Origin: Robiginitalea biformata HTCC2501
GTDB lineage: Bacteria > Bacteroidota > Bacteroidia > Flavobacteriales > Flavobacteriaceae
Reading direction: 5' to 3'
DNA length: 64,000 nt
NCBI RefSeq assembly: GCF_000024125.1
Contig: NC_013222.1
Span: 1,342,501-1,406,500 of the forward strand
Translations under genes and position numbers: made by a program
The notes under the pieces: generated by a model
What the model was told of the DNA's origin: nothing
The model's input: only the letters and a program-made list of their open reading frames with translations
Database searches by the model: none
Part shown: positions 21,273-32,684 of the stretch, in pieces
Layout: the number at the start of each line of letters is the position of its first letter
Position numbering within the stretch: position 1 is the stretch's first letter

Positions 21273-21297
21273 AAAAAAACCCACCGTTTCCGGTGGG
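21273..21297 (-). terminator. Rho-independent terminator of the receptor-hmuY unit
   Basis: Stem CCCACCG/CGGTGGG with a GAAA loop on the minus strand, followed by seven T, 32 bases past the HmuY-like stop. Confidence 0.85.
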
Positions 21298-21328: not shown

Positions 21329-21952
21329 TTACTCCAGGCTGTCCTCCCCGTCGTTCGGGTTGTACAGGTAGTTGAAGGTATAATAGCGGGATTCGCTCTC
21401 CATATCCGGCTGGGACGGGTTGTCCCGGTAGTAGCTCAGGATTTCCACCTTCGCGTAGTTCCCGTTGCGGGTGCGGAAGACCAGGATCTTACCCGGTATC
21501 GGGGTGATGGTAAACTGTTGCGGGTTGTAGTTGTACCAACCGTTGTCACTGCCTGTGGGGATGGCAAAGCCGTTTGCGCCGTCCTGGGCAAACGTCAGGC
21601 CGGCAGCCGTGGTGACGCTGGCAAAGGTGCCGTCCACAATGGCTGCCGCGGCGTCCCCGTTGCGTTCCGGCTCGTCATTCGTGCCTGTCTCCGTGCCCCC
21701 ATTGACCGCGATGGTGGTACCGCGGAAGGCGATGTCCCATTCGGTGTCGCTCGTAGTGGTGGCACCCGATTCAAAATCGAATTTGGTAAACGGCCCGCCA
21801 ACGGGTTCACCCTGCCCGCCGGTCTGGGGGGCATGGAGGTTGGAAACCGTTTCGGACTCGGCGGGGAGGGCCCCGGGCCCATTATCGTCGTCTTTGCTGC
21901 AGGATGCCAGGGAAACGGTCAGGATGGTTAAGTAAAGGGAAAACTTCTTCAT
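21329..21952 (-). CDS. hmuY: HmuY family haem-binding lipoprotein
   Basis: 207 residues. The lipoprotein signal ends at Cys18 (SLASCSKDDD). The body has the HmuY pattern: FDFESGATTTSDTEWDIAF, a Gly/Thr-rich stretch around TIAVNGGTETG, then WYNYNPQQFTITPIPGK and VFRTRNGNYAKVEILSYYR. HmuY-type proteins bind haem at the cell surface and pass it to a TonB receptor. The gene lies 24 bases after the receptor, in the same unit. Haem specificity cannot be proven here; some family members may bind other porphyrins. Confidence 0.88.
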   Translation of the reverse strand: MKKFSLYLTILTVSLASCSKDDDNGPGALPAESETVSNLHAPQTGGQGEPVGGPFTKFDFESGATTTSDTEWDIAFRGTTIAVNGGTETGTNDEPERNGDAAAAIVDGTFASVTTAAGLTFAQDGANGFAIPTGSDNGWYNYNPQQFTITPIPGKILVFRTRNGNYAKVEILSYYRDNPSQPDMESESRYYTFNYLYNPNDGEDSLE

Positions 21953-21976
21953 GGATCAGGAATTAAATTTGAATAA

Positions 21977-24106
21977 TTAGAATTGATAATTGATTTTCGT
22001 AAAGAGGACCCTTCCCGGTTGGGTGGGAATATCCGGGTCCGTATAGCCAAACAGGTTGTTGGCCCCAACCTGCAGGGTAAAGTCTTTCAGGAATGTTTTG
22101 CTCACCGCTGCGTGCGCCAGGGCATACCCGTCCACAAAACTCGTGTCGTACGAATCGATCAGCCCATTGCCGTTTGTGTCGAATTGGGCGTACCGGCTCC
22201 GGTAAAGCAGGCGGAAGTTGAAATCCAGGCCCCAATCGGGGATGTCGTAATACAGTTTCAGGTTTGCATTGTGGCGGGATCGGTTTGGCAGCCCGAAGTA
22301 ATCCGACCGACTGAGCGCCACGGTCTGGTTGGTGGCATCCCGGGCAAAAACCGAGCCATCCGCCACTGCTTCGCGCTGGGTTTTGTCGTAAGCATAGAGC
22401 AACTGGTAGCCGGCGTTCAGGCTGATATTTTCCGATAGCTTGTAGGTGGCATTCACCTCTGCCCCCGCGGTGAATATCTCGTCAAAATTCACATAGCTGA
22501 ACACGTTTTGGCCATTGGTTTTCCGAGCGATGATCCGGGTGTCGATCAGGTTGCTGAAATCGTTGCGGAACAGGTTTAGTTCGGCATTCCAGCGTTTCAG
22601 GCGAAATGCGATGCCCGCGTTGTACCCCACGGAGCTTTCGGCTTGCAGGGGCGCATCCAGGTCGGAAATCGGGACGACGATCTGGCTGATCTGGCCCTGC
22701 TCGTCGAGTTCGGTGAGTTTGCGGCCGGCCACATTGTATCCGAGCACCGTATAGCCCACCGTGGAATTCGTATAGTCAAAATAGAGCTGGCGGAAATCCG
22801 GGGCTTTGAACCCATAGCCCACGGATGCCTTCAGGGCCGTGACGTCGGACAGCCGGTAGCGGACTGCCAGTTTGGGGCTCAGTTGGTCGTTGTACTCCGA
22901 ATGGTTGTCGTACCGGGCGCCGGCAATGACATTCAGCCGATCCACCGGGTTGAAATCGTACTGGGCATAGACGTATTGGGAGCCGAAGCTGACGGCCCTG
23001 TCGAAATACGTCCGGTCCAGCTGTTCGAATTGCAGCCCGGTCCCCGCGGTGAGTTTTCCACCCCCATTGAGGGTATAGGTGCCCCGGATTTCCGGCCGCA
23101 GCAGGCGCTGGTCAAAATCGCTGTCGCTCAGGACCGTATCCGTCAGCGGGTCGGCCAGGCGCTCGTCTGCCTGAAAGTTGGTGTAATAGAATTCGTATTC
23201 CATTTCCAGGGCGTCGCTCCAGGCGTGTTCCCCCCGGGTGTGGAAGTTCCACTCCCGCTGGTGGCTGTCGCCCTCGTAGTCCGTCTCCCCAACCGACAGG
23301 CCGGCATCCTGCACCTGGTCGTAGAAACGCGAGGAGGTAAACAGGGAAAACCGATCCGAGAAGTCGTAGTAAAACCGGCCCTGGAGCGTGTAATTCTCAA
23401 ACGGGTTCACCGTCTGGCCGGCGGTTTCCGGAGTCAGGTCGTATCCTTCGCTCGAGAACCGGTTGGCGAACAACCCGTAGCGGAAAGCGCCCCGCCGCTG
23501 CTTCAGGTTCAGGTTCATGTCCTGCTGGGCAAACCGTCCTATCCGGTAGTCTACCGAACCTTCCAGGGATTCAGTATTCGGTTTCTCCGTAATGATATTA
23601 ATGACCCCGCCAAGCGCTTCCGAGCCGTAGAGGCTGCTGGAAGGGCCCTTCACCACCTCTACTTGTTTGATATTCCCCACTGCGAGTCGTTGGAGGTCGA
23701 AGTTCCCGGCGCTCCGTCCCACCAGCGGGACCCCGTCCATCAAAATCAGGATATAGTCCGAAGCAACGCCCTGGATCTGTACGCCTTCAAAACCGCTTTC
23801 GTCGGCGACGGTGATGATCCCGGTTTGTTCGCTGAGGATTTCCCCGAGCCGCACAGCCCCCGCCTTTTCAATCCGGTCGGCGGATACCAGGGTAACCGGC
23901 AGGGGGAGGGAGGAGACCTGCCGCTCCGTACGCGTGGCAGTCAGGACAACTTCCTGCAGGTAGGTAGGCAATATCGAATCCTCTGCAACCCGGTTTTCTC
24001 CGGGGGATTCCTGTGCCCCGGCATGCCACGAACCCAGGCTATTCAATCCGAAAAACAGGCAGGTCAGATAAAAGTAGAATGCAACCGGAGGCCGATTTTG
24101 GCTCAT
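21977..24106 (-). CDS. TonB-dependent receptor (HmuR-like, haem/iron type)
   Basis: 709 residues. The signal peptide ends near residue 31. A TonB-box-like EVVLTATRTE (about 52-61) precedes the plug domain (RLGEILSEQTGIITV, VQIQGVASDYILILMDGVPL, VVKGPSSSLYGSEALGGVINII). The rest is the 22-strand barrel, ending in the aromatic KINYQF. There is no CarboxypepD-like repeat or SusD partner, so it is a metal/haem receptor rather than a SusC. It is cotranscribed with the HmuY-like lipoprotein and depends on ExbBD-TonB. Two Fur-like palindromes flank its -7 element. Confidence 0.93.
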   Translation of the reverse strand: MSQNRPPVAFYFYLTCLFFGLNSLGSWHAGAQESPGENRVAEDSILPTYLQEVVLTATRTERQVSSLPLPVTLVSADRIEKAGAVRLGEILSEQTGIITVADESGFEGVQIQGVASDYILILMDGVPLVGRSAGNFDLQRLAVGNIKQVEVVKGPSSSLYGSEALGGVINIITEKPNTESLEGSVDYRIGRFAQQDMNLNLKQRRGAFRYGLFANRFSSEGYDLTPETAGQTVNPFENYTLQGRFYYDFSDRFSLFTSSRFYDQVQDAGLSVGETDYEGDSHQREWNFHTRGEHAWSDALEMEYEFYYTNFQADERLADPLTDTVLSDSDFDQRLLRPEIRGTYTLNGGGKLTAGTGLQFEQLDRTYFDRAVSFGSQYVYAQYDFNPVDRLNVIAGARYDNHSEYNDQLSPKLAVRYRLSDVTALKASVGYGFKAPDFRQLYFDYTNSTVGYTVLGYNVAGRKLTELDEQGQISQIVVPISDLDAPLQAESSVGYNAGIAFRLKRWNAELNLFRNDFSNLIDTRIIARKTNGQNVFSYVNFDEIFTAGAEVNATYKLSENISLNAGYQLLYAYDKTQREAVADGSVFARDATNQTVALSRSDYFGLPNRSRHNANLKLYYDIPDWGLDFNFRLLYRSRYAQFDTNGNGLIDSYDTSFVDGYALAHAAVSKTFLKDFTLQVGANNLFGYTDPDIPTQPGRVLFTKINYQF

Positions 24107-24111
24107 GATAT

Positions 24112-24131
24112 TTATTTAGAATAATTCTTAA
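24112..24131. promoter_or_regulatory. Fur-family-like operator 1 (proximal)
   Basis: TTATTTAGAATAATTCTTAA contains TTTAGAA-TAA-TTCTTAA, an inverted repeat with one mismatch that resembles Fur/Irr-type sites. It lies just upstream of the receptor ATG, where transcription should start from the -7 element at 24140-24147. Confidence 0.55.
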
Positions 24132-24139
24132 TAGCGAGC

Positions 24140-24147
24140 CAAATATA
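24140..24147 (-). promoter_or_regulatory. -7 promoter element of the receptor-hmuY unit
   Basis: TATATTTG on the minus strand (24147 to 24140), 33 bases before the receptor ATG. The two palindromes lie on either side, over the expected start point and the -33 region. Confidence 0.55.
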
Positions 24148-24157
24148 TTGATTAATC

Positions 24158-24174
24158 TTATTTAGAATAAATAA
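24158..24174. promoter_or_regulatory. Fur-family-like operator 2 (distal)
   Basis: TTATTTAGAATAAATAA is a perfect palindrome around GAA and shares the 13-base core TTATTTAGAATAA with operator 1. It overlaps the expected -33 region of the receptor promoter and lies 56 bases before the divergent gene. Confidence 0.55.
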
Positions 24175-24229
24175 AAATAGTTATTTTCGTCCCCGAGATT
24201 TTTGTCCAACCCATAATAGATTTGAGAAC

Positions 24230-25141
24230 ATGCGATCCAACCTCCTGCTAATCACTGCCCTGGCGTTAACGGCCTTTGTCAGCGGTCAGGCCGAAAAAAA
24301 ACAACAAGACCGGGAAGCCATCAAGAACATGTGCGGCTGTTTTGAAGTCACCTTCAATTTTGCCGAGACGTTTAACTACAGCAACGACTCCTTATATAAG
24401 CCCTCCAAGACCAAGGTGGACAAGGGGCTTGAATGGGCCCAGCTGGTCACCGATGCGGACGATAAAATTTCCATCCAACACCTGTTGCAGGTGGGCAACC
24501 CGTCGGATCCGCATATCGTCAAGCACTGGCGGCAGGACTGGCTTTTCGAAAACACCGATTTCTACAGCTACAACGGCGACAATGTCTGGGTGTTTGAGGA
24601 GAAACCGGCTGCAGACGTCTCCGGCCAGTGGACCCAAAAAGTCTATCAGGTGGATGATAGCCCGCGATACGAAGGCAGTGCCACCTGGGTACATGTAGAC
24701 GGTAAAAGCTTCTGGGAAAACACGGCCGACGCCCCCCTGCCACGGCGGGAGTATACCACGCGCAGCGACTACAACCTGACGGTCCGCGGCAACCGGCATG
24801 AGATTACCGATTTTGGCTGGGTCCACGACCAGGACAACGCCAAGGTGATCCGCAAGCCCGGGGAAGAAGACGTGGTACTGGCCCGGGAAAAGGGATACAA
24901 TACCTATGTGCGCGTCCCGGACAGCCGCTGTGCCGCTGCGGCGGGCTGGTGGGAGGAAAACCAGGAGAAATGGGCGCTGGTGCGCGCCAAATGGGATGAG
25001 GTTTACGGGCGGAAGGCCAACCTGGTCCTGGAAGAGAAGGTAGACAACAAGGCGCTCTACAAGCATTTGTTTGCCGAAGGCTACGAAGAAGCCGCTGCCA
25101 TTGACGGCGTTATTGAATCATTTGTAAAAAAGACACGATGA
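24230..25141 (+). CDS. DUF6607 family exported protein
   Basis: 303 residues. A signal peptide (about 1-19, ending VSGQ) is followed by MCGCFEVTFNFAETF with Cys35 and Cys37, and by a beta-rich body with many Trp residues (HWRQDW, NVWVFEE, GKSFWEN). I assign it to DUF6607 from memory of the CGCFEV.F.FAETF pattern. It heads a four-gene unit divergent from the haem receptor and overlaps the next gene by 4 bases (ATGA). Its function is not known; the CxC pair and context suggest a periplasmic role in haem or iron handling. Confidence 0.75.
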   Translation: MRSNLLLITALALTAFVSGQAEKKQQDREAIKNMCGCFEVTFNFAETFNYSNDSLYKPSKTKVDKGLEWAQLVTDADDKISIQHLLQVGNPSDPHIVKHWRQDWLFENTDFYSYNGDNVWVFEEKPAADVSGQWTQKVYQVDDSPRYEGSATWVHVDGKSFWENTADAPLPRREYTTRSDYNLTVRGNRHEITDFGWVHDQDNAKVIRKPGEEDVVLAREKGYNTYVRVPDSRCAAAAGWWEENQEKWALVRAKWDEVYGRKANLVLEEKVDNKALYKHLFAEGYEEAAAIDGVIESFVKKTR

Positions 25142-26661
25142 AGACAGTTATCGAAAAGAAGCAGGCTATCCGCAACCGCGTTTGGGCACTGCTGTTCCTG
25201 CTGGTTGCCCTGCCGGTTGCCGCCCAACAGCAGAATCCCTTCCTGAACCGGGATTTCTGGAAAGCAGACCCAACGGTAGAGGATGTCAGGCGGGAAATCG
25301 CCAACGGCCACAACCCGGCCGAAATGACATCGAGCGCCTTTGACGGGGTAATCTACAGCATGCTTGAGAAAGCGGATCCGGAGGTAACCCGCTTCCTGCT
25401 CGCGCAGGAAGGGAACGACATTGAGAAGAAAACGCACGACAGCCGGACTTACATCCACTGGGCTGCCTACGCCGGAAATGCCGAACTGGTATCCTGGCTG
25501 CTGGAGCAGGGGGCGCGGACGGACGTGCGCGACAGCCACGGCTACACCCCGGCGGCATTTGCAGCTTCCACCGGGCAACGCAACACGGAAATTTACAACC
25601 TGTTTGCTTCCCACGGGGTAAACCTGGCAAACCAGAAAAGTGAGTCCGGGGCTAATTTGTTGCTATTGAACGTCCCTTATATGGACGGCATGGAAGAGTT
25701 CGCATACTTCCGGGAAAAAGGGATTGATCTGGCTGAAACCGACGCCAACGGGAACGGGGTGTTCAACTATGCCACCCGGGCGGGGAATATCGACCTGTTA
25801 AAGGAATTGGTGGCAGCCGGGGTAGACTACCAGACCCCGAATGCCGACGGGGGCAATGCTTTCTTCTTTGCCGCCCAGGGTACCCGGGGGCACCGCAACG
25901 GCCTGGAACTGTACGAATACCTGGCCGGATTGGGCCTGGACCCTGCAACCGTGTCGAAATCCGGGGAAAGCGCTTTCCACCGGGTGGCCTATTCCGACAA
26001 AGACCCGGAAATTATCCGGTTTTTTCTCGAGCACGGGGCTATAGCCAACCAGCCTGATGCCGAGGGCAATACGCCTTTCGGGAATGCGGCCGCCGGGAAC
26101 ACCCCGGAGGTGGTCGGAATCCTTGCCGGGGAAGTCTCCGACGTGGATGCGGCCAATGCCGCTGGGCAGACAGCCCTGATGCGGGCCGTCCGCAGCAACA
26201 ACCCCGCCGTGGTTTCCCTGCTGATCGAAGCGGGCGCCGACGTTGCGGCCCGGGATGAAAAAGGCAACTCGATATCCTTTTACCTGCTCGCGTCCTTTGA
26301 CGCCTCCCACCCGGAGGTTTATGACCAGAAACTGGCAGCCCTGCAACAGGCCGGTTTCAACCTGTACGAAACCCAGGCGGGCGGCAATACGCTGTACCAT
26401 CTGGCGGCCGACGCCAACAGCCTGCCCCTGCTTGAAAAAGTGGCCCACGAAAGCCTGGATGTGAATGCCCGGAACGAAGAGGGGATGACGGCCCTGCATA
26501 TTGCGGCCATGAAAGCATCCGACGATGCGTTGCTTCGCTACCTGGTAGGCCTGGGCGCGAATACGGCTATCCAAACCGATTTTGAAGAAACCGCCCTGGA
26601 CCTGGCCCGCGAGAATGAGCGCCTGGACCAGAACGGGGTGACCTTAAATTTTCTGAACTGA
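25138..26661 (+). CDS. Exported ankyrin-repeat protein
   Basis: 507 residues. A signal peptide (about 1-31, ending VAAQ) is followed by about ten ankyrin repeats, for example YIHWAAYAGNAELVSWLLEQ, TALMRAVRSNNPAVVSLLIE and TALHIAAMKASDDALLRYLV. Periplasmic ankyrin proteins are known near catalases and redox proteins; they bind protein partners. It overlaps DUF6607 at its start and the DUF2271 gene at its end (TGATG), so all three are translationally coupled. A scaffold for the other products is inferred. Confidence 0.88.
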   Translation: MKTVIEKKQAIRNRVWALLFLLVALPVAAQQQNPFLNRDFWKADPTVEDVRREIANGHNPAEMTSSAFDGVIYSMLEKADPEVTRFLLAQEGNDIEKKTHDSRTYIHWAAYAGNAELVSWLLEQGARTDVRDSHGYTPAAFAASTGQRNTEIYNLFASHGVNLANQKSESGANLLLLNVPYMDGMEEFAYFREKGIDLAETDANGNGVFNYATRAGNIDLLKELVAAGVDYQTPNADGGNAFFFAAQGTRGHRNGLELYEYLAGLGLDPATVSKSGESAFHRVAYSDKDPEIIRFFLEHGAIANQPDAEGNTPFGNAAAGNTPEVVGILAGEVSDVDAANAAGQTALMRAVRSNNPAVVSLLIEAGADVAARDEKGNSISFYLLASFDASHPEVYDQKLAALQQAGFNLYETQAGGNTLYHLAADANSLPLLEKVAHESLDVNARNEEGMTALHIAAMKASDDALLRYLVGLGANTAIQTDFEETALDLARENERLDQNGVTLNFLN

Positions 26662-27149
26662 TGATGAAATTCAGGTTATTCATCGCCGGTATGGCCGCCG
26701 CCGCTGGCCTGGTGCTGGCGGGATTTGCCCAACCGGCCAATACGGCTGTAAAGTGTCTGATCCAGATGACGAATTACACGGGGGAAGGCGCGTATATCGT
26801 GGTCTCCCTCCTCGATGAGGAAGGGGAGTACCAGCAAACCCTGCAGGTGCTGGGGACCGACAGCGAATGGTACAGTGAAATCCCGGAATGGTGGCAGTTC
26901 TATGGCAAGTACCGGCCCGACATCGACGGGATATCCGGGGCTACCCTGAGCGGGGGCGAACGCTCGGTGAGCGTCCTGCAGATTCCGTCGGATAAAATTG
27001 ATGCAGGGTACCAGCTGCGGTTTGAAACATCGGTGGAGGATCAGGAATACTATGCCGACGACCTGCAATTTGAGCTGACCAGCGAGAACCTCAAAAGCAA
27101 AAAGGAGGGAAGGGGCTTTATCCGGTATATCCGGATGCTGCCCCAATAA
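26661..27149 (+). CDS. DUF2271 family exported protein
   Basis: 162 residues with a signal peptide (about 1-28). The core (YIVVSLLDEEGEYQQTLQVL, WYSEIPEWWQFYGK, DGISGATLSGGE) fits DUF2271, periplasmic beta-sandwich proteins often found beside PepSY proteins and FAD/flavodoxin reductases. It overlaps the ankyrin gene by one base and precedes the reductase fusion by 9 bases. Role unknown; an electron or metal partner of the membrane reductase is inferred. Confidence 0.82.
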   Translation: MMKFRLFIAGMAAAAGLVLAGFAQPANTAVKCLIQMTNYTGEGAYIVVSLLDEEGEYQQTLQVLGTDSEWYSEIPEWWQFYGKYRPDIDGISGATLSGGERSVSVLQIPSDKIDAGYQLRFETSVEDQEYYADDLQFELTSENLKSKKEGRGFIRYIRMLPQ

Positions 27150-27158
27150 TCCGGACGG

Positions 27159-29423
27159 ATGACCTTGTCCCTGTGGAGATATAGCCACCTGGCCCTGGCC
27201 GTCGCCACGTCGGCCTTCCTGCTGATTGCATCGGTTACGGGCGTGATCCTGGCCCTGGAGCCGATTACCCACCAGGCCCGCGGATATGCCGTGGCCGACC
27301 TGGATGAGGTTCCGTTGTCCACCGCCCTGGAGGCGTTGACCGCCAACTACGAAGAGGTATTTACCCTGGAGGTGGAACGCTCCGGCTTTGTCCGGGCCGG
27401 CGTGCTGACGGCCGACCTGGAGAGCCTGGAGGTGTATGTGGACCCCCGAACCGGGGAAACCCTCGGACCCGTGGAGGAGCGGCCGGCTATCTACAGCTTT
27501 TCCACCAACCTGCACCGCTCCCTATTCCTCAAGGGTGCCGGTCGCTTTTTTGTAGGCCTGGTATCCCTGCTCCTCTGTATCATCGCCGTCAGTGGCATCG
27601 CCTTGCTCGCCCAGCGGCAGGGCGGCTTCCGCCGAATCCTGTCCCCGGTACGGAAAGACTACTTTGCCATGCGCTACCACGTGCTCCTGAGCCGCTGGAT
27701 GCTGGTGCCCATCCTGGTGGTCGCACTCACGGGCGTCTACCTGTCGGCCGAGAAATTCCAGTTGCTACCCGAAGCCCAACCGCACCACCAGGAAGTTGCC
27801 TCCCCGCCAACCGGGGAGGGCTCCGGCCCGGCTATGTCCACAGGCGCACCTGGGCAGGCAGGGGTACTGGGCGAATGGGCGCTGTCCGAAGTGCGCCGCG
27901 TGGAATTTCCCTTCTCGGATGAACCCGGGGAGTACTACCTCATTGAATTAAAGGATCGGGAGGTCCGCGTTTCCCCCATGACGGGCGCCATCCTCAGCGA
28001 GGCGGATTTCCCGATGGTCACCCTGCTCTCCCGCTTCAGCTTTGCGGCGCATACAGGGCAGGGAAATGTTTTCTGGTCGATTGTGCTCCTGCTGGCATCC
28101 GCCTCCATCCTGTTCTTTATGTATTCCGGTTTTGCGATGACCCTCCGGCGCCGCAAGAATACCCGGGTCCGCAAGGACGGTTCGCATGGGGCGTCCATAT
28201 CGAATCCCGACTCCAGCGAGGTCGTGGTCCTGGTCGGGTCGGAAACCGGGACCACCTTTGGCTTTGCCCGGTCGCTCTGCGAAGGGATACGGGCTACCGG
28301 CCGCACCGTACACCTGGCGGAGCTGAATGCCTACAGGACCTATCCGAATGCCCGGCAGCTGGTGGTGCTGACCGCTACTTACGGGGATGGGGAAGCCCCG
28401 ACCAATGCCCGGAAATTTCTTTCGAAGGTCGATCGGGTGGAACAGCCTGCGGCCCTGCAGTTTTCCGTGGTGGGATTCGGCTCCACCCAGTACCCCGATT
28501 TCTGTCGCTACGCAGCCGATGTTCAGGAGAAACTGGAAGCGCACCCCGGTTTCCGGGCAGGTTTACCCCTCTACCGCGTGGACGACCAGTCCGAGGCGGA
28601 TTTCCGGACCTGGCTGAACGCCTGGGGCGACCGTACCGAAATACGGGTGGGGTTTGAGGCACCTGCAGAGCCGGAGCCCCTTGACGAAATCGGGTTTACC
28701 GTAGTCAGCCGGAGCCCGGTAAACGCGGATGACACCTTCCTGCTAACCCTCCGGCCCGAAACGGACCAACCCTTTACCTCCGGCGACCTGCTGGCTGTCC
28801 GTCCCAACAAGGCCAGCGGATATCGGCAGTATTCCATCGCCTACATGGACGGGGACATCGTACTGAGTATCCGAAGGCACCCCGGGGGACGCTGCTCTTC
28901 CTACCTGTATAGCCTGCAGGCCGGGGACCGGATCGCTGCCGCCATCCAGGAGAACCCCGGGTTCCATTTCCCGGGGCATGTCCGGTCTGCCGTGATGATT
29001 GCCAACGGGACGGGGATAGCTCCCTTCCTGGGCATGATGCAACAGACAAACGGTACAGATGTACACCTGTTCTGGGGCGGGAGGACACGCGAATCCGGAA
29101 AGCTCTACAGCCCCTGGCTCAAACAGCTCCAGGACCCGGAAGGGCCCCCCGCTGCCGGCACCCCGAATTTCTCCCAGGGCGGCCCCAATATCCGGACCTG
29201 CTATTCCCGTGAGGGCGCTAAACGCTACGTCCAGGACCTGGTCCTGGAAGACCGGGAAACCGTCCTGCATACCCTCCGGGAAGGCGGGGTTCTGATGCTT
29301 TGCGGCTCCCTCAATATGCAGCGGAGCGTTTTGGACAACCTCGAGTCGTTGTTGGAAGCCGAAGAGGGCATGACCCTGGATGGCTATATCAAAAGCGGCC
29401 AGCTGCTCATGGATTGTTATTGA
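27159..29423 (+). CDS. PepSY-TM / flavodoxin / NADPH-ferredoxin-reductase fusion
   Basis: 754 residues. The N-terminal half is a PepSY-associated membrane domain with TM helices at about 12-33, 129-151, 179-197 and 304-328 and histidines at 119 (NLHRSL), 174 and 298 (AAHTGQG) that could bind haem. After a basic linker come a flavodoxin domain (about 354-500; GSETGTT FMN loop, TATYGDGEAPTNA) and an FNR-like FAD/NADPH domain (RQYSIAY, GGRCSSYLY, IANGTGIAPFLGMMQ). It therefore resembles a cytochrome P450 reductase module attached to a membrane haem domain, able to move electrons from cytosolic NADPH to the periplasm. Last gene of the DUF6607 unit; ferric or haem reduction is inferred. Confidence 0.9.
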   Translation: MTLSLWRYSHLALAVATSAFLLIASVTGVILALEPITHQARGYAVADLDEVPLSTALEALTANYEEVFTLEVERSGFVRAGVLTADLESLEVYVDPRTGETLGPVEERPAIYSFSTNLHRSLFLKGAGRFFVGLVSLLLCIIAVSGIALLAQRQGGFRRILSPVRKDYFAMRYHVLLSRWMLVPILVVALTGVYLSAEKFQLLPEAQPHHQEVASPPTGEGSGPAMSTGAPGQAGVLGEWALSEVRRVEFPFSDEPGEYYLIELKDREVRVSPMTGAILSEADFPMVTLLSRFSFAAHTGQGNVFWSIVLLLASASILFFMYSGFAMTLRRRKNTRVRKDGSHGASISNPDSSEVVVLVGSETGTTFGFARSLCEGIRATGRTVHLAELNAYRTYPNARQLVVLTATYGDGEAPTNARKFLSKVDRVEQPAALQFSVVGFGSTQYPDFCRYAADVQEKLEAHPGFRAGLPLYRVDDQSEADFRTWLNAWGDRTEIRVGFEAPAEPEPLDEIGFTVVSRSPVNADDTFLLTLRPETDQPFTSGDLLAVRPNKASGYRQYSIAYMDGDIVLSIRRHPGGRCSSYLYSLQAGDRIAAAIQENPGFHFPGHVRSAVMIANGTGIAPFLGMMQQTNGTDVHLFWGGRTRESGKLYSPWLKQLQDPEGPPAAGTPNFSQGGPNIRTCYSREGAKRYVQDLVLEDRETVLHTLREGGVLMLCGSLNMQRSVLDNLESLLEAEEGMTLDGYIKSGQLLMDCY

Positions 29424-29500: not shown

Positions 29501-29644
29501 AAGTTAAGATTAACATAATTCTTCTACCGGGCTTTTTATTTTTAAGCACTGCCGGATATGGCAGCTTACATCCTGCGCGTTCCGAGTGGCCCCCCTGGCT
29601 GCGTCAGTTTCTCCGCAGGCCACAAACTCATTAAACCACATTTT

Positions 29645-31285
29645 ATGAAAAGAAGAAATTTTGTCCAGTACGCGGGATTGGGCACCGGTGCGCTTATGAT
29701 GCCGTCCCTGCTGATCGGCCGGGAGATTCCGCAGGAAGCCCTGCTGGCGCCCGGTATGGACAACGCAGTTAAAAAGAGAATGGCTGACGTAGCCCTGAAC
29801 ACGGCAAAATCCCTTGGGGCCACCTACGCAGATGCGCGGATTGGACGCTATCTGAACCAATATGTATTTACCCGGGAGGATAAGGTGCAGAATGTGGTGA
29901 ACACGGAATCCTTTGGAATCGGTATCCGGGTGATCGCCAACGGCACCTGGGGCTTCTCTTCCACAAACGACGTCACGGAGGACGGCATTAAGAAGGCCAC
30001 CGAGCAGGCTGTGGCCATTGCCAAGGCGAATTCCACAATCCAGAAGGAGCCGGTGGTCCTGGCGCCGGTGCAGTCCCATGGGGAGGTATCCTGGAAAACG
30101 CCCATCAAAAAGGACTTTAAGGAAGTGCCGGTCTCCGATAAAGTAGACCTCTTGCTGTCCGCCAATGCGGCTGCCATCGAAAACGGCGCCAGCTTTGTGA
30201 ATTCCGCTCTTTTCATGGTCAATGAACAGAAATACTTCGCCTCCACGGACGGTTCCTACATCGACCAGGATGTCCACCGGATCTGGCCAACCTTCGGGGT
30301 CACGGCCATTGACCGCCAGGCGGGAAAATTCAAAACACGCCAGGCCATGAGCGCCCCGATGGGAATGGGCTTTGAGTATATGGACGGCCTGGAATCGGAA
30401 AAACTGCAAGGCCCCTCGGGGATTAAACTCTACAGGAACAGCTACGATATGGTGGAGGACGCTGCCCTGGCCGCGAAGCAGGCACTGGAAAAACTCAACG
30501 CCAAATCTGTTGAGGCCGGCAAGTACGACCTGGTCCTGGAACCGAACCACCTGGGGCTCACCATCCACGAATCCGTGGGGCACCCGCTGGAACTCGACCG
30601 CGTCCTCGGGTACGAGGCAAATTACGCCGGGACCAGTTTTGCAACCCTGGACAAATGGAAATCCGGAGATTTCCAGTACGGCAGCAATATCGTAAACCTC
30701 GTTGCCGACAAAACGCAACCGGGCTCCCTGGGCGCTGTGGGGTACGACGACGAAGGCGTAAAGACCAAGAAATGGGATCTGGTCCGCAACGGGATCCTGA
30801 CCAACTACCAGGCGATCCGCGACCAGGTGCATATGATCGACCAGAACGAATCCCACGGCTGTTGCTACGCGCAAAGCTGGGACGACGTGCAATTCCAGCG
30901 GATGCCGAATGTCTCCCTGGAACCGGGCAGCGAGCCCTATTCCATCGACCAGATGATTGCAGATGTGGAGAAGGGGATCTATATCGCAGGGCGCGGGTCG
31001 TATTCCATCGACCAGCAGCGGTATAACTTCCAGTTCGGGGGCACCGTGTTTTACGAGATCAGGGATGGGAAAATCGTCGGCATGCTGGACGATGTGGCCT
31101 ATCAGTCCAATACCCAGGAGTTCTGGAATTCCTGCGTGAAGATTTGCGACGAGAACGACTACCGCCTCTTCGGCTCCTTCTTTGACGGAAAAGGGCAGCC
31201 CTCCCAGATCAGCGCCGTCTCTCACGGCAGCTCCACCGCCCGGTTCAACGATGTAAATGTGATCAACACAGGCAGGACCATTTAA
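29645..31285 (+). CDS. tldD: TldD family metalloprotease, Tat-exported
   Basis: 546 residues from the chosen ATG. The start MKRRNFVQYAGLG followed by a hydrophobic stretch looks like a twin-arginine signal, so this TldD would act outside the cytoplasm, unlike the E. coli protein. The zinc motif HESVGH (His308, Glu309, His313) is intact; Gly-rich C-terminal strands (IAGRGSYSI) fit the family. TldD works as a heterodimer with TldE (next gene, 27 bases downstream) that cleaves unfolded peptides. The frame is open 29 codons further upstream, but those codons would bury the Tat signal. Confidence 0.9.
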   Translation: MKRRNFVQYAGLGTGALMMPSLLIGREIPQEALLAPGMDNAVKKRMADVALNTAKSLGATYADARIGRYLNQYVFTREDKVQNVVNTESFGIGIRVIANGTWGFSSTNDVTEDGIKKATEQAVAIAKANSTIQKEPVVLAPVQSHGEVSWKTPIKKDFKEVPVSDKVDLLLSANAAAIENGASFVNSALFMVNEQKYFASTDGSYIDQDVHRIWPTFGVTAIDRQAGKFKTRQAMSAPMGMGFEYMDGLESEKLQGPSGIKLYRNSYDMVEDAALAAKQALEKLNAKSVEAGKYDLVLEPNHLGLTIHESVGHPLELDRVLGYEANYAGTSFATLDKWKSGDFQYGSNIVNLVADKTQPGSLGAVGYDDEGVKTKKWDLVRNGILTNYQAIRDQVHMIDQNESHGCCYAQSWDDVQFQRMPNVSLEPGSEPYSIDQMIADVEKGIYIAGRGSYSIDQQRYNFQFGGTVFYEIRDGKIVGMLDDVAYQSNTQEFWNSCVKICDENDYRLFGSFFDGKGQPSQISAVSHGSSTARFNDVNVINTGRTI

Positions 31286-31312
31286 TCCTGGTTTTCCCTT
31301 AAAAATTATACA

Positions 31313-32629
31313 ATGGCTATATACACAAAAGACGAAGCGAGAACCATTCTCGAAAAGGCATTGAGTTATTCCAAGGCCGATGCCTGTGAAATCAACCTGA
31401 GCGGGAGCAACAGCGGCAATATCCGTTACGCCCGGAATACGGTGTCCACCTCGGGGCACAGTTCCAACCAGACCCTGGTGGTCCAATCCAGTTTCGGCAA
31501 GAAATCCGGGACGGCCACCATCGACGAATTCGACGACGCCTCCCTGGAAAAAGTGGTCCGACGGGCCGAGGAACTCGCCAGGCTGTCCCCGGAAAACCCG
31601 GAATTCATGGAACCTTTGGGGCCCCAGGAGTACGATGATTCGCTTACCTACAAAGAATCCACGGCCAATATCAGCCCGGAATACCGGGCCAAAGTGGCCA
31701 GCAGCAGCATCGATCCGGCTGCGGCCCAGGACGTAACAGCTGCCGGCTTTTTCAATGATTCGGAAGGCTTTAGTGCGATGATCAATTCCAACGGGCTGTT
31801 CGCCTACAACCGGGCAACGGATATGGAGTTCACCGTGACGATGCGTACCAATGACGGTACGGGTTCCGGATGGGTGAGCCGCGACTATAACGACGTCGAC
31901 AAGTTCGATGCCGCCGAGGCATCCAAAATCGCCATCGACAAGGCGGTGATGTCCCGGGAAGCCAGGGCAATTGAGCCCGGGAAGTATACGGTGATCCTGG
32001 AGCCCGCCGCTTCCAACGATTTGCTGGGGAATATGTTCTCCTCCTTCAGCGCCCGCTCCGCGGACGAAGGCCGGAACTTTATGTCCGCCCCGGACGGGGG
32101 CAACAAGCTGGGGCAGAAGATTGTGGACGAACGGGTGACCATCTGGTCGGACCCGCTCCACCCGGACGTGCCCTCGGCTACCTGGAACGGGTCGGGGCAG
32201 CCCCTGAAAAAGACGATGTGGATCGAGAACGGGGTGGTCAAAAACCTCGCCTACGACAGGTACTGGGCCGAGCAGAAAGGCGTAGAGCCCGTACCGTTCC
32301 CCTCCAACGGGATAATGGCCGGGGGGGATGCCAGCCTGGAAGACCTGATCCGCAGCACGAACCGGGGAATTCTGGTAACCCGCCTGTGGTATATCCGCAG
32401 TGTAGACCCGCAGACCTTGCTCTACACGGGCCTCACGCGTGACGGTACCTTCTATATCGAGAACGGGCAGATCAAGCACCCGGTAAAGAATTTCCGCTTT
32501 AACGAGAGCCCGATCATCATGCTGAACAACCTGGAGACCCTCGGACAACAGGTGCGTATTGACGGAAACCTGATCCCGTATATGAAGATCCGGGACTTTA
32601 CCTTTACGAGCCTGTCGGACGCGGTTTAA
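31313..32629 (+). CDS. tldE: TldE/PmbA family protein
   Basis: 438 residues. It is the non-catalytic partner of TldD: the same fold but no HExxxH motif. N-terminal RYARNTVSTSG and the later GKYTVILEPAASNDLLGNM and TREGYFYIE-like segments (here LTRDGTFYIENGQIKHPV) are family marks. No signal peptide is evident, in contrast to the preceding TldD; this mismatch of location deserves attention. A strong terminator follows 20 bases after the stop. Confidence 0.9.
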   Translation: MAIYTKDEARTILEKALSYSKADACEINLSGSNSGNIRYARNTVSTSGHSSNQTLVVQSSFGKKSGTATIDEFDDASLEKVVRRAEELARLSPENPEFMEPLGPQEYDDSLTYKESTANISPEYRAKVASSSIDPAAAQDVTAAGFFNDSEGFSAMINSNGLFAYNRATDMEFTVTMRTNDGTGSGWVSRDYNDVDKFDAAEASKIAIDKAVMSREARAIEPGKYTVILEPAASNDLLGNMFSSFSARSADEGRNFMSAPDGGNKLGQKIVDERVTIWSDPLHPDVPSATWNGSGQPLKKTMWIENGVVKNLAYDRYWAEQKGVEPVPFPSNGIMAGGDASLEDLIRSTNRGILVTRLWYIRSVDPQTLLYTGLTRDGTFYIENGQIKHPVKNFRFNESPIIMLNNLETLGQQVRIDGNLIPYMKIRDFTFTSLSDAV

Positions 32630-32649
32630 ACGAAAACGACCTGAAAACT

Positions 32650-32684
32650 GGTTGCCCGGCATACTCGGGCAGCCCGTTTTTTTT
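32650..32684 (+). terminator. Rho-independent terminator after tldE
   Basis: Stem GGTTGCCCG/CGGGCAGCC (9 bp, one G-T) with a 7-base loop, then CG and eight T. It separates tldDE from the DUF4159-MoxR genes. Confidence 0.85.

Follow-up and report, generated by a model that had tools for sequence, protein, structure and literature searches.

A haem-iron locus of the RhuH type in Robiginitalea biformata HTCC2501 and its putative periplasmic reductase arm

The genome of the flavobacterium Robiginitalea biformata HTCC2501 is a single contig of 3,530,383 bases, and the stretch of 64,000 nucleotides analysed here (the window) carries a cluster of six genes arranged in two divergent arms (Table 1). 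One arm encodes a TonB-dependent receptor and a HmuY-like lipoprotein, and the other a DUF6607 protein, an ankyrin-repeat protein, a DUF2271 protein and a fusion of PepSY_TM, flavodoxin and reduced nicotinamide adenine dinucleotide phosphate (NADPH) reductase domains. We propose that the cluster is a Fur-controlled haem-iron locus of the rhuHRA type whose operon also encodes a periplasmic reductase arm, which would reduce haem iron or iron derived from haem; in our judgement the chances of this reading are evenly balanced. The family identities of the proteins and the regulation of the locus by Fur appear well supported by profile and motif comparisons. A sequence-only reading of the window had already described the six genes, and all six frames are indeed present and match the families that it named. 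The first three genes of the plus strand overlap, as it had observed, by 4 bases (DUF6607 and ankyrin) and 1 base (ankyrin and DUF2271), and the PepSY gene starts 9 bases after DUF2271.

By its sequence and modelled fold, the DUF6607 protein is a member of the RhuH haemophore family. It aligns over nearly its full length with the structure of Riemerella anatipestifer RhuH (8XJC; E 1.6e-84), and its model matches that fold with a template modelling (TM) score of 0.90. The haem ligand and contacts of RhuH (His96, Arg143, Tyr144, Arg170, Arg183 and Gln198), mapped by hand on the 8XJC sequence alignment, correspond here to H99, R146, Y147, R173, R186 and Q201, and none of the six varies among the 104 aligned DUF6607 sequences, a set that includes the window copy (L001) and possibly one genome twice (the Zobellia loci L023 and L033). 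A second histidine, H84, is also invariant in the 104 sequences and is absent from the available text of PMC11967795; by strand pairing, it should lie beside H99. The RhuH of R. anatipestifer has been characterised by its structure and by mutants, binds haem very tightly and extracts it from haemoglobin, and homologues from three species were assayed as well (PMC11967795). Fold neighbours of the barrel include phycobilin-lyase-like proteins and nitrobindin, and two spirocyclases tie with these tetrapyrrole binders. Across the 28 loci in which all six proteins could be aligned, mean identity to the window was 68.8% for RhuH, 58.3% for DUF2271, 58.2% for HmuY, 52.8% for the receptor, 43.5% for PepSY and 42.9% for the ankyrin protein, loci being picked by RhuH similarity, which favours RhuH; in 27 of the 28 paired loci, RhuH identity exceeded that of HmuY. 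An extracellular protein might be expected to vary more than its receptor, so that the high conservation of RhuH gives a hint, and only a hint, of a conserved inner role.

The gap of 123 bases between the divergent arms (window 24107-24229) holds the two best Fur-box candidates of the window. A 19-base palindrome, ATTTAGAATCATTCTAAAT, was recovered from the sequences 5' of DUF6607 in 80 loci and in the window (81 regions), of which 72 scored above the 99th percentile of shuffles with the Fur matrix, which was built on loci later scored with it, window included, and compared with single-base shuffles as null. With this matrix, ATTTAGAATAATTCTTAAT is the top site of the 64 kb at 20.1, a score that none of 810 shuffled sequences reached, and ATTTAGAATAAATAAAAAT comes second at 10.9, the next site scoring 6.0. 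Only six sites of the 3.53 Mb genome lie within three mismatches of ATTTAGAATNATTCTAAAT, two of them in the divergent gap, and the reversed control gave none. The four others are found between hemA and an AraC-type gene, directly before iron-sulfur assembly genes (a PF01521 protein, SufB and an ATPase of the ATP-binding cassette (ABC) type), within an aminotransferase frame, at its 3' end and before a DoxX gene, and, with three mismatches, in the interval separating a SPOR protein from a multihaem cytochrome; the hemA site is the other one-mismatch match of the genome (L166 around 4263; genome position 595762). In R. anatipestifer, the rhuB promoter fragment bound by Fur in an electrophoretic mobility shift assay contains ATTTAGAATTATCCTAAAT, a box of similar type (PMC10986502), and an earlier paper on this species prints a different Fur box, GATAATGATAATCATTATC (PMC7976709); the window box fits the former. 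The suggestion of the sequence-only reading that this is a haem or iron locus is supported by the RhuH identity and by the Fur boxes in the gap. A Bacteroidota -33 box at the usual spacing was not seen in the gap by eye.

Downstream of rhuH, the plus strand encodes the putative reductase arm. The PepSY fusion matches PepSY_TM (PF03929; 1.7e-35), Flavodoxin_1 (7.1e-19) and NAD_binding_1 (1.6e-8) in Pfam, and hydropathy gives four membrane spans in its PepSY part, where H10, H119, H174 and H298 are kept in 63 of 63 aligned relatives. Four histidines are reported to bind two haems in the PepSY protein FoxB (PMC11334425), and those of the window are as predicted for two such bis-histidine sites. 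The membrane part alone had no sequence match in the PDB up to E 10, FoxB included. The AlphaFold2 model of the fusion has a predicted local distance difference test (pLDDT) score of 80.9 and a predicted TM score of 0.49; its C-terminal half models as a diflavin enzyme of the NADPH-cytochrome P450 reductase type, and the 50 matches listed for the fold of the entire protein are diflavin reductases, the diflavin part having filled the list, so that FoxB is not among them. The best PDB sequence matches of the fusion are nitric-oxide synthases. DUF2271, a protein without PDB sequence match up to E 10, has an SGAT motif and shares D89, G93 and T95 with all of its 65 aligned relatives; one DUF2271 of another species was found to be flavinylated by ApbE on the threonine of the motif [S/T]GA[S/T] (PMC8238504). 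No ApbE is encoded within the cluster, and the genome has two ApbE genes, both far from it, one near a NqrF-like reductase. The ankyrin protein has a signal peptide; none of 62 relatives shows a lipobox-like motif, and the homologues are 487 to 507 residues long among the 120 listed of 278. Gene fusion to DUF2271 or RhuH would have given a proof of contact; none of these 120 homologues (7998 candidates scored) shows one. The claim that NADPH electrons could in principle reach the periplasm is plausible in view of the four invariant PepSY histidines and the DUF2271 flavinylation motif, and we consider such a path likely. What the sequences themselves show are the family identities, the conserved residues for cofactors and ligands, the Fur boxes, the conservation of the operon and the co-occurrence across genomes; we infer the flavinylation of DUF2271 in R. 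biformata, the direction of the electrons, the role of the ankyrin protein and, first of all, the nature of the acceptor.

On the other strand, the HmuY-like lipoprotein shares the cysteine of its lipobox, C18, with all 42 aligned relatives. The P. gingivalis HmuY ligates haem by two histidines, whereas the protein of the window and its relatives have no conserved histidine, which makes such ligation unlikely here, and share Y140, Y142, Y174 and Y175 (42/42); haem ligation, if any, probably differs from that of P. gingivalis. The receptor best matches TonB-B12 (1.6e-48) and then TonB-hemin (1.2e-43) in NCBIfam, and stays below the curated cut-off of all 25 families shown, out of 28 matched, so that its label as a haem receptor comes from its context rather than from its own sequence.

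The arm recurs next to rhuH among close relatives. The loci surveyed were the best 80 of 571 relatives and hence lie near the window, and the profiles were built on loci subsequently scored with them. Where at least 6 kb followed rhuH, 57 of 76 loci had the ankyrin, DUF2271 and PepSY genes all 3' of it and in its orientation, which argues that the arrangement is not due to chance; 14 had no arm nearby and five a partial one. Leeuwenhoekiella palythoae and Maribacter (loci L026 and L028) are examples with the fused operon. Two of these five (L042 and L063) are artefacts of the coordinate limit, the ankyrin frame opening inside rhuH, and a looser limit brings all three genes to 59 of the 80 loci, in a count whose gene distances run from open-frame starts instead of start codons and give no measure of promoter room. 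With at least 4 kb upstream, a divergent receptor was present in 58 of 76 loci and HmuY along with it in 48; the other 10 receptors scored only 22 to 150 bits and probably belong to other subfamilies. Of the 75 loci with both flanks, 36 were complete with six genes; the arm occurred without the receptor and HmuY in 21 and the receptor-HmuY pair without the arm in nine, and four had none of the five partners.

A sample of 296 genomes drawn evenly from the phylum gives a wider view. DUF6607 was detected in 25 of them, or 24 once a fragment at a contig end (G270) is dropped, and DUF2271 in 22 over the cut-off (35 at E 0.001, of which 13 weak ones were dropped). Sixteen of the 22 DUF2271 genomes also had DUF6607, as compared with 24 of 296 overall, and within the window's family both were present in 13 genomes, either one alone in two each and neither in 13 (p 1.5e-4, shared ancestry ignored). 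The co-occurrence with HmuY for which the sequence-only reading had asked was found: in this family, HmuY is present in all 15 DUF6607-positive genomes and in none of 15 negative ones. Overall, 23 of the 24 DUF6607 genomes have it, and so do 73 genomes beyond these 24. It occurs in 15 of the 16 genomes with both DUF6607 and DUF2271 versus one of six with DUF2271 alone, so that the arm exists without the haem system and genomes with the haem system usually gain the arm.

In this sample, 22 DUF2271 regions from 21 genomes were inspected (two from Zobellia; the copy in the window excluded), and 18 show the ankyrin-DUF2271-PepSY set, each with an ankyrin protein of about 500 residues. Beside the PepSY gene of these separate arms, ApbE is encoded in 14 of the 18, on the same strand in 11. 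One of the other regions starts at a contig end, and one Zobellia copy adjoins rhuH without the rest. In L135 and L136, DUF2271 forms part of a frame of 507 to 516 residues that also matches ApbE, likely a self-flavinylating fusion. Conversely, ankyrin or DUF2271 accompanied none of 18 DUF6607 regions inspected; weak matches to the PepSY profile near DUF6607 in L140 and L143 (56 and 58 bits) were not counted as an arm, and in four further genomes DUF6607 and DUF2271 lie on different contigs.

Table 1. Features of the haem-iron locus in the window (positions counted from the first base of the window).
Feature	Positions	Strand	Remarks
Terminator-like hairpin CCCACCG/CGGTGGG, T-run on minus strand	21273..21297	-	Just 3' of the HmuY gene; read from the sequence
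HmuY-like lipoprotein	21329..21952	-	PF14064, E 1.6e-9; lipobox LASC; in the place of RhuA (R. anatipestifer) and HfpY (F. psychrophilum)
TonB-dependent receptor	21977..24106	-	PF00593, 3.4e-40; PF07715, 1.3e-22; in the place of RhuR/HfpR
Fur box ATTTAGAATAATTCTTAAT	24114..24132	.	Shared divergent promoter; matrix score 20.1
Second, partial Fur box ATTTAGAATAAATAAAAAT	24160..24178	.	Matrix score 10.9; 3 mismatches
DUF6607, RhuH-family haemophore	24230..25141	+	PF20311, 1.5e-97; signal peptide, without lipobox
Ankyrin-repeat protein, about 500 residues	25138..26661	+	PF12796, E 3e-41; signal peptide
DUF2271 periplasmic protein, predicted covalent-flavin carrier	26661..27149	+	PF10029, E 4.2e-38
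SGAT flavinylation motif of DUF2271	26934..26945	+	Residues 92-95; predicted acceptor T95
PepSY_TM + flavodoxin + NADPH-reductase fusion	27159..29423	+	Predicted NADPH-to-periplasm electron conduit

Beyond the PepSY gene, the minus strand has a frame of 1050 residues without Pfam match below 1e-5 (window 29510-32662), flanked on its far side by a DUF4159-MoxR-DUF58-BatA gene set. Its coding strand is only putative, as two long frames of the plus strand overlap it.

Several described systems resemble parts of the locus. In R. anatipestifer, a Fur-box promoter of 122 bp separates rhuH from the divergent receptor gene rhuR and from rhuA (PMC11967795), and DUF6607 in the window likewise diverges from the receptor and HmuY genes over a Fur-box gap of about 120 bp and keeps the six published contact residues. 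The likeness of the receptor and lipoprotein to RhuR and RhuA is one of layout. Unlike its counterpart, rhuH of the window continues into the ankyrin, DUF2271 and PepSY-diflavin genes; the words 'ankyrin' and 'PepSY' do not occur in the available text of PMC11967795. The arm in turn resembles the PepSY-like flavinylation-associated systems, of which 3220 clusters were catalogued, with DUF2271 in 2833, a TonB receptor in 231 and a NAD-binding domain in 1077 of the PepSY genes, and for which a role in iron reduction was proposed (PMC8238504). As there, a PepSY_TM protein with a NAD-binding domain lies next to a motif-bearing DUF2271, at 9 bases; unlike these systems, in which a neighbouring ApbE is frequent without being obligatory, the cluster has no ApbE and its six proteins no DUF4198 match, and it adds a signal-peptide ankyrin protein and a haemophore, 'ankyrin' and 'HmuY' being absent from the available text of that study.

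A row of genes in R. anatipestifer CH-1, B739_0173-0177, is likely the counterpart of the window arm. In iron depletion, these genes rise by log2 3.31, 3.64, 2.41, 3.06 and 1.05, under the labels TonB receptor, hypothetical, ankyrin, predicted periplasmic protein and 'nitric oxide synthase', in that order (PMC5429918), and Fur binds the promoter of B739_0173, the receptor gene ahead of the likely arm (PMC7976709). The labels and their order fit ankyrin, DUF2271 and PepSY-diflavin, since Pfam describes DUF2271 as 'Predicted periplasmic protein' and the fusion has nitric-oxide synthases as its best PDB matches. B739_0173 was also considered as the haem receptor RhuB and rejected, RhuB being B739_1068 (PMC10986502). 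The sequence-only reading, which knew of no experimental description of these genes and spoke of four poorly known proteins, therefore went too far on both counts: RhuH has a published structure and mutants (PMC11967795), flavinylation has been reported for a DUF2271 (PMC8238504), and the likely arm of R. anatipestifer is iron-induced (PMC5429918). The joined rhuH-ankyrin-DUF2271-PepSY set was not found described in the literature searched, which excludes most subscription papers.

Other relatives share fewer parts. In hfpR-hfpY of Flavobacterium psychrophilum, as in the window, a receptor goes with a haem-binding protein of the HmuY family, there co-transcribed and induced in low iron, with the difference that another gene lies between the two; the text of PMC9331221 mentions neither 'ankyrin' nor 'PepSY'. 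The hmuYRSTUV loci of Porphyromonas and Bacteroides also pair a HmuY-family protein with a TonB receptor, but no match to their HmuS (CobN-type) exists in the window's genome. The PepSY siderophore reductases FoxB and HiuB have a similar PepSY_TM membrane part with four conserved histidines, whereas the PepSY protein of the window is fused to a flavodoxin and a NADPH reductase and comes with a flavin carrier.

The enzymes encoded elsewhere in the genome bear on the fate of haem. Haem oxygenase (PF01126), HemS (PF05171) and CobN/HmuS (PF02514) had no match in the R. biformata genome, the HugZ, IsdG and radical S-adenosylmethionine routes not having been searched. Among the 24 DUF6607 genomes, PF01126 is found in eight, HemS in one and CobN in four, the latter matches being possibly cobalamin enzymes, and 12 have neither PF01126 nor CobN. 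The missing families are consistent with a release of iron in the periplasm, without proving it. A dedicated haem ABC permease was considered and rejected as not specific, since the family of the sole FecCD gene occurs in all 30 genomes sampled from the window's family, with or without DUF6607.

In the mechanism that we propose, the RhuH haemophore and the surface lipoprotein of the HmuY type would capture haem, which would then cross to the periplasm via the TonB receptor. Electrons from NADPH would pass the flavin adenine dinucleotide and flavin mononucleotide domains on the cytoplasmic side of the PepSY fusion, cross the membrane over two b-type haems in its PepSY part, and reach a flavin that an ApbE, its gene lying outside the cluster, would have attached covalently to T95 of DUF2271. 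Once reduced, this flavin would in turn reduce haem iron, or ferric iron freed from haem, with the ankyrin protein as a dock or scaffold, and Fe(II) would enter by FeoB. That the electron acceptor would be haem or haem-derived iron, and not a ferri-siderophore, is favoured by the operon fusion and the missing enzymes; the free-standing arms favour Fe(III) or a siderophore.

A number of observations weigh against this proposal. Six of the 22 DUF2271 genomes lack DUF6607, five of them also HmuY, and eight of the 24 DUF6607 genomes lack a strong DUF2271, so that neither needs the other, and a dependence of the arm on HmuY or rhuH had to be rejected given its occurrence apart from both. In the evenly drawn sample, the arm lies apart from rhuH in 14 of the 16 genomes with both, with ApbE beside 12 of these 14, and the likely arm of R. 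anatipestifer is likewise apart from rhuHRA (B739_1415-1417). Together with the genomes lacking DUF6607 and HmuY, and with the location of RhuH, described as a secreted haemophore, in outer-membrane vesicles (PMC11967795), this speaks against the single dedicated complex of four proteins put forward in the sequence-only reading. At least two separate arms (L122 and L131) stand 3' of a TonB receptor with a CarboxypepD_reg domain and a frame of about 450 residues without Pfam match, as expected of a siderophore system. Such a frame is also seen in L133, 3' of an untyped frame of 807 residues; the three (L122 9020-10411, L131 3199-4539, L133 5639-6919) measure 427 to 464 residues, have a lipobox-like start and no Pfam match, and are possible surface siderophore-binding proteins and possible counterparts of B739_0174. 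The flavinylation motif varies, with GET in place of GAT in 17 of the 65 DUF2271 relatives and V at its first position in six. Four further PepSY_TM matches elsewhere in the genome, three over the cut-off, indicate that the fusion is not its sole candidate reductase, and FeoB, found in R. biformata, was present in every one of the 44 genomes searched regardless of DUF6607, so that its presence says little.

Many of these points suit a different reading, less probable in our view and still a serious one, in which the arm is a general periplasmic reductase of ferric iron or ferri-siderophores, placed near rhuH by a shared Fur regulon, while haem stays intact and follows a separate route. The arm does occur without rhuH and, in at least two cases, follows another TonB receptor; earlier proposals for PepSY/DUF2271 clusters deal with siderophores and Fe(III) (PMC8238504; PMC12424826, on PepSY only). 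However, shared Fur control requires neither the union of rhuH and the arm in 57 of 76 close loci nor the overlapping frames of the window, and the divergent neighbours are the receptor and HmuY in 48 of 76 loci. Alternatively, RhuH itself could be the periplasmic site of haem processing, the electrons of DUF2271 driving iron removal or ring opening in its barrel. No other protein of the locus is as conserved as RhuH, the invariant H84 should flank the ligand H99, phycobilin-lyase-like proteins and nitrobindin are among the fold neighbours of RhuH, and the genome gave no match to the three haem-iron-release families. We nevertheless deem this quite unlikely, as the published RhuH is a tight binder and secreted haemophore for which the available text reports no catalysis (PMC11967795), rhuH has no arm nearby in 14 of the 76 close loci, and the spirocyclases tie with the tetrapyrrole binders. 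Least credible, and highly improbable, is that the PepSY protein serves as an inner-membrane permease for an iron complex: PepSY permeases for siderophores have been predicted (PMC7190382) and FecCD was not found in six of the 24 DUF6607 genomes, but the protein carries flavodoxin and NADPH-reductase domains, its four invariant histidines resemble the two-haem ligands of FoxB, and it has a flavin-carrier partner.

The RhuH haemophore, the rhuHRA layout and the PepSY/DUF2271 flavinylation systems were known already; new here are the rhuH-ankyrin-DUF2271-PepSY linkage, the ankyrin companion of DUF2271-PepSY (18 of 22 regions) and the likeness of the RhuH barrel to bilin lyases and nitrobindin, among others. 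The proposed Fur-controlled haem-iron locus links the recently described RhuH family, listed in Pfam under DUF6607 only, with an electron-transfer module based on flavin, and suggests, in a form open to testing, how iron could be freed from haem by Bacteroidota in which the three haem-degrading families searched for are missing. The comparison also points to a uniform ankyrin protein with a signal peptide, of about 500 residues, that usually joins DUF2271 and PepSY as third member of this system in Bacteroidota, and to a kinship of the RhuH fold with nitrobindin and bilin-lyase-like proteins. Should the acceptor prove to be a siderophore, the ankyrin partner and the Fur-controlled module would still be a useful annotation. 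We also offer a bolder conjecture, rather unlikely to be right, for aerobic Bacteroidota without known haem-iron-release enzymes: the RhuH barrel would hold haem between two neighbouring histidines, and the PepSY-diflavin protein and flavinylated DUF2271, docked by the ankyrin protein, would reduce it with electrons from NADPH until Fe(II) leaves. Were this true, RhuH would be, beyond a secreted haemophore, a working part of a periplasmic machine releasing iron from haem.

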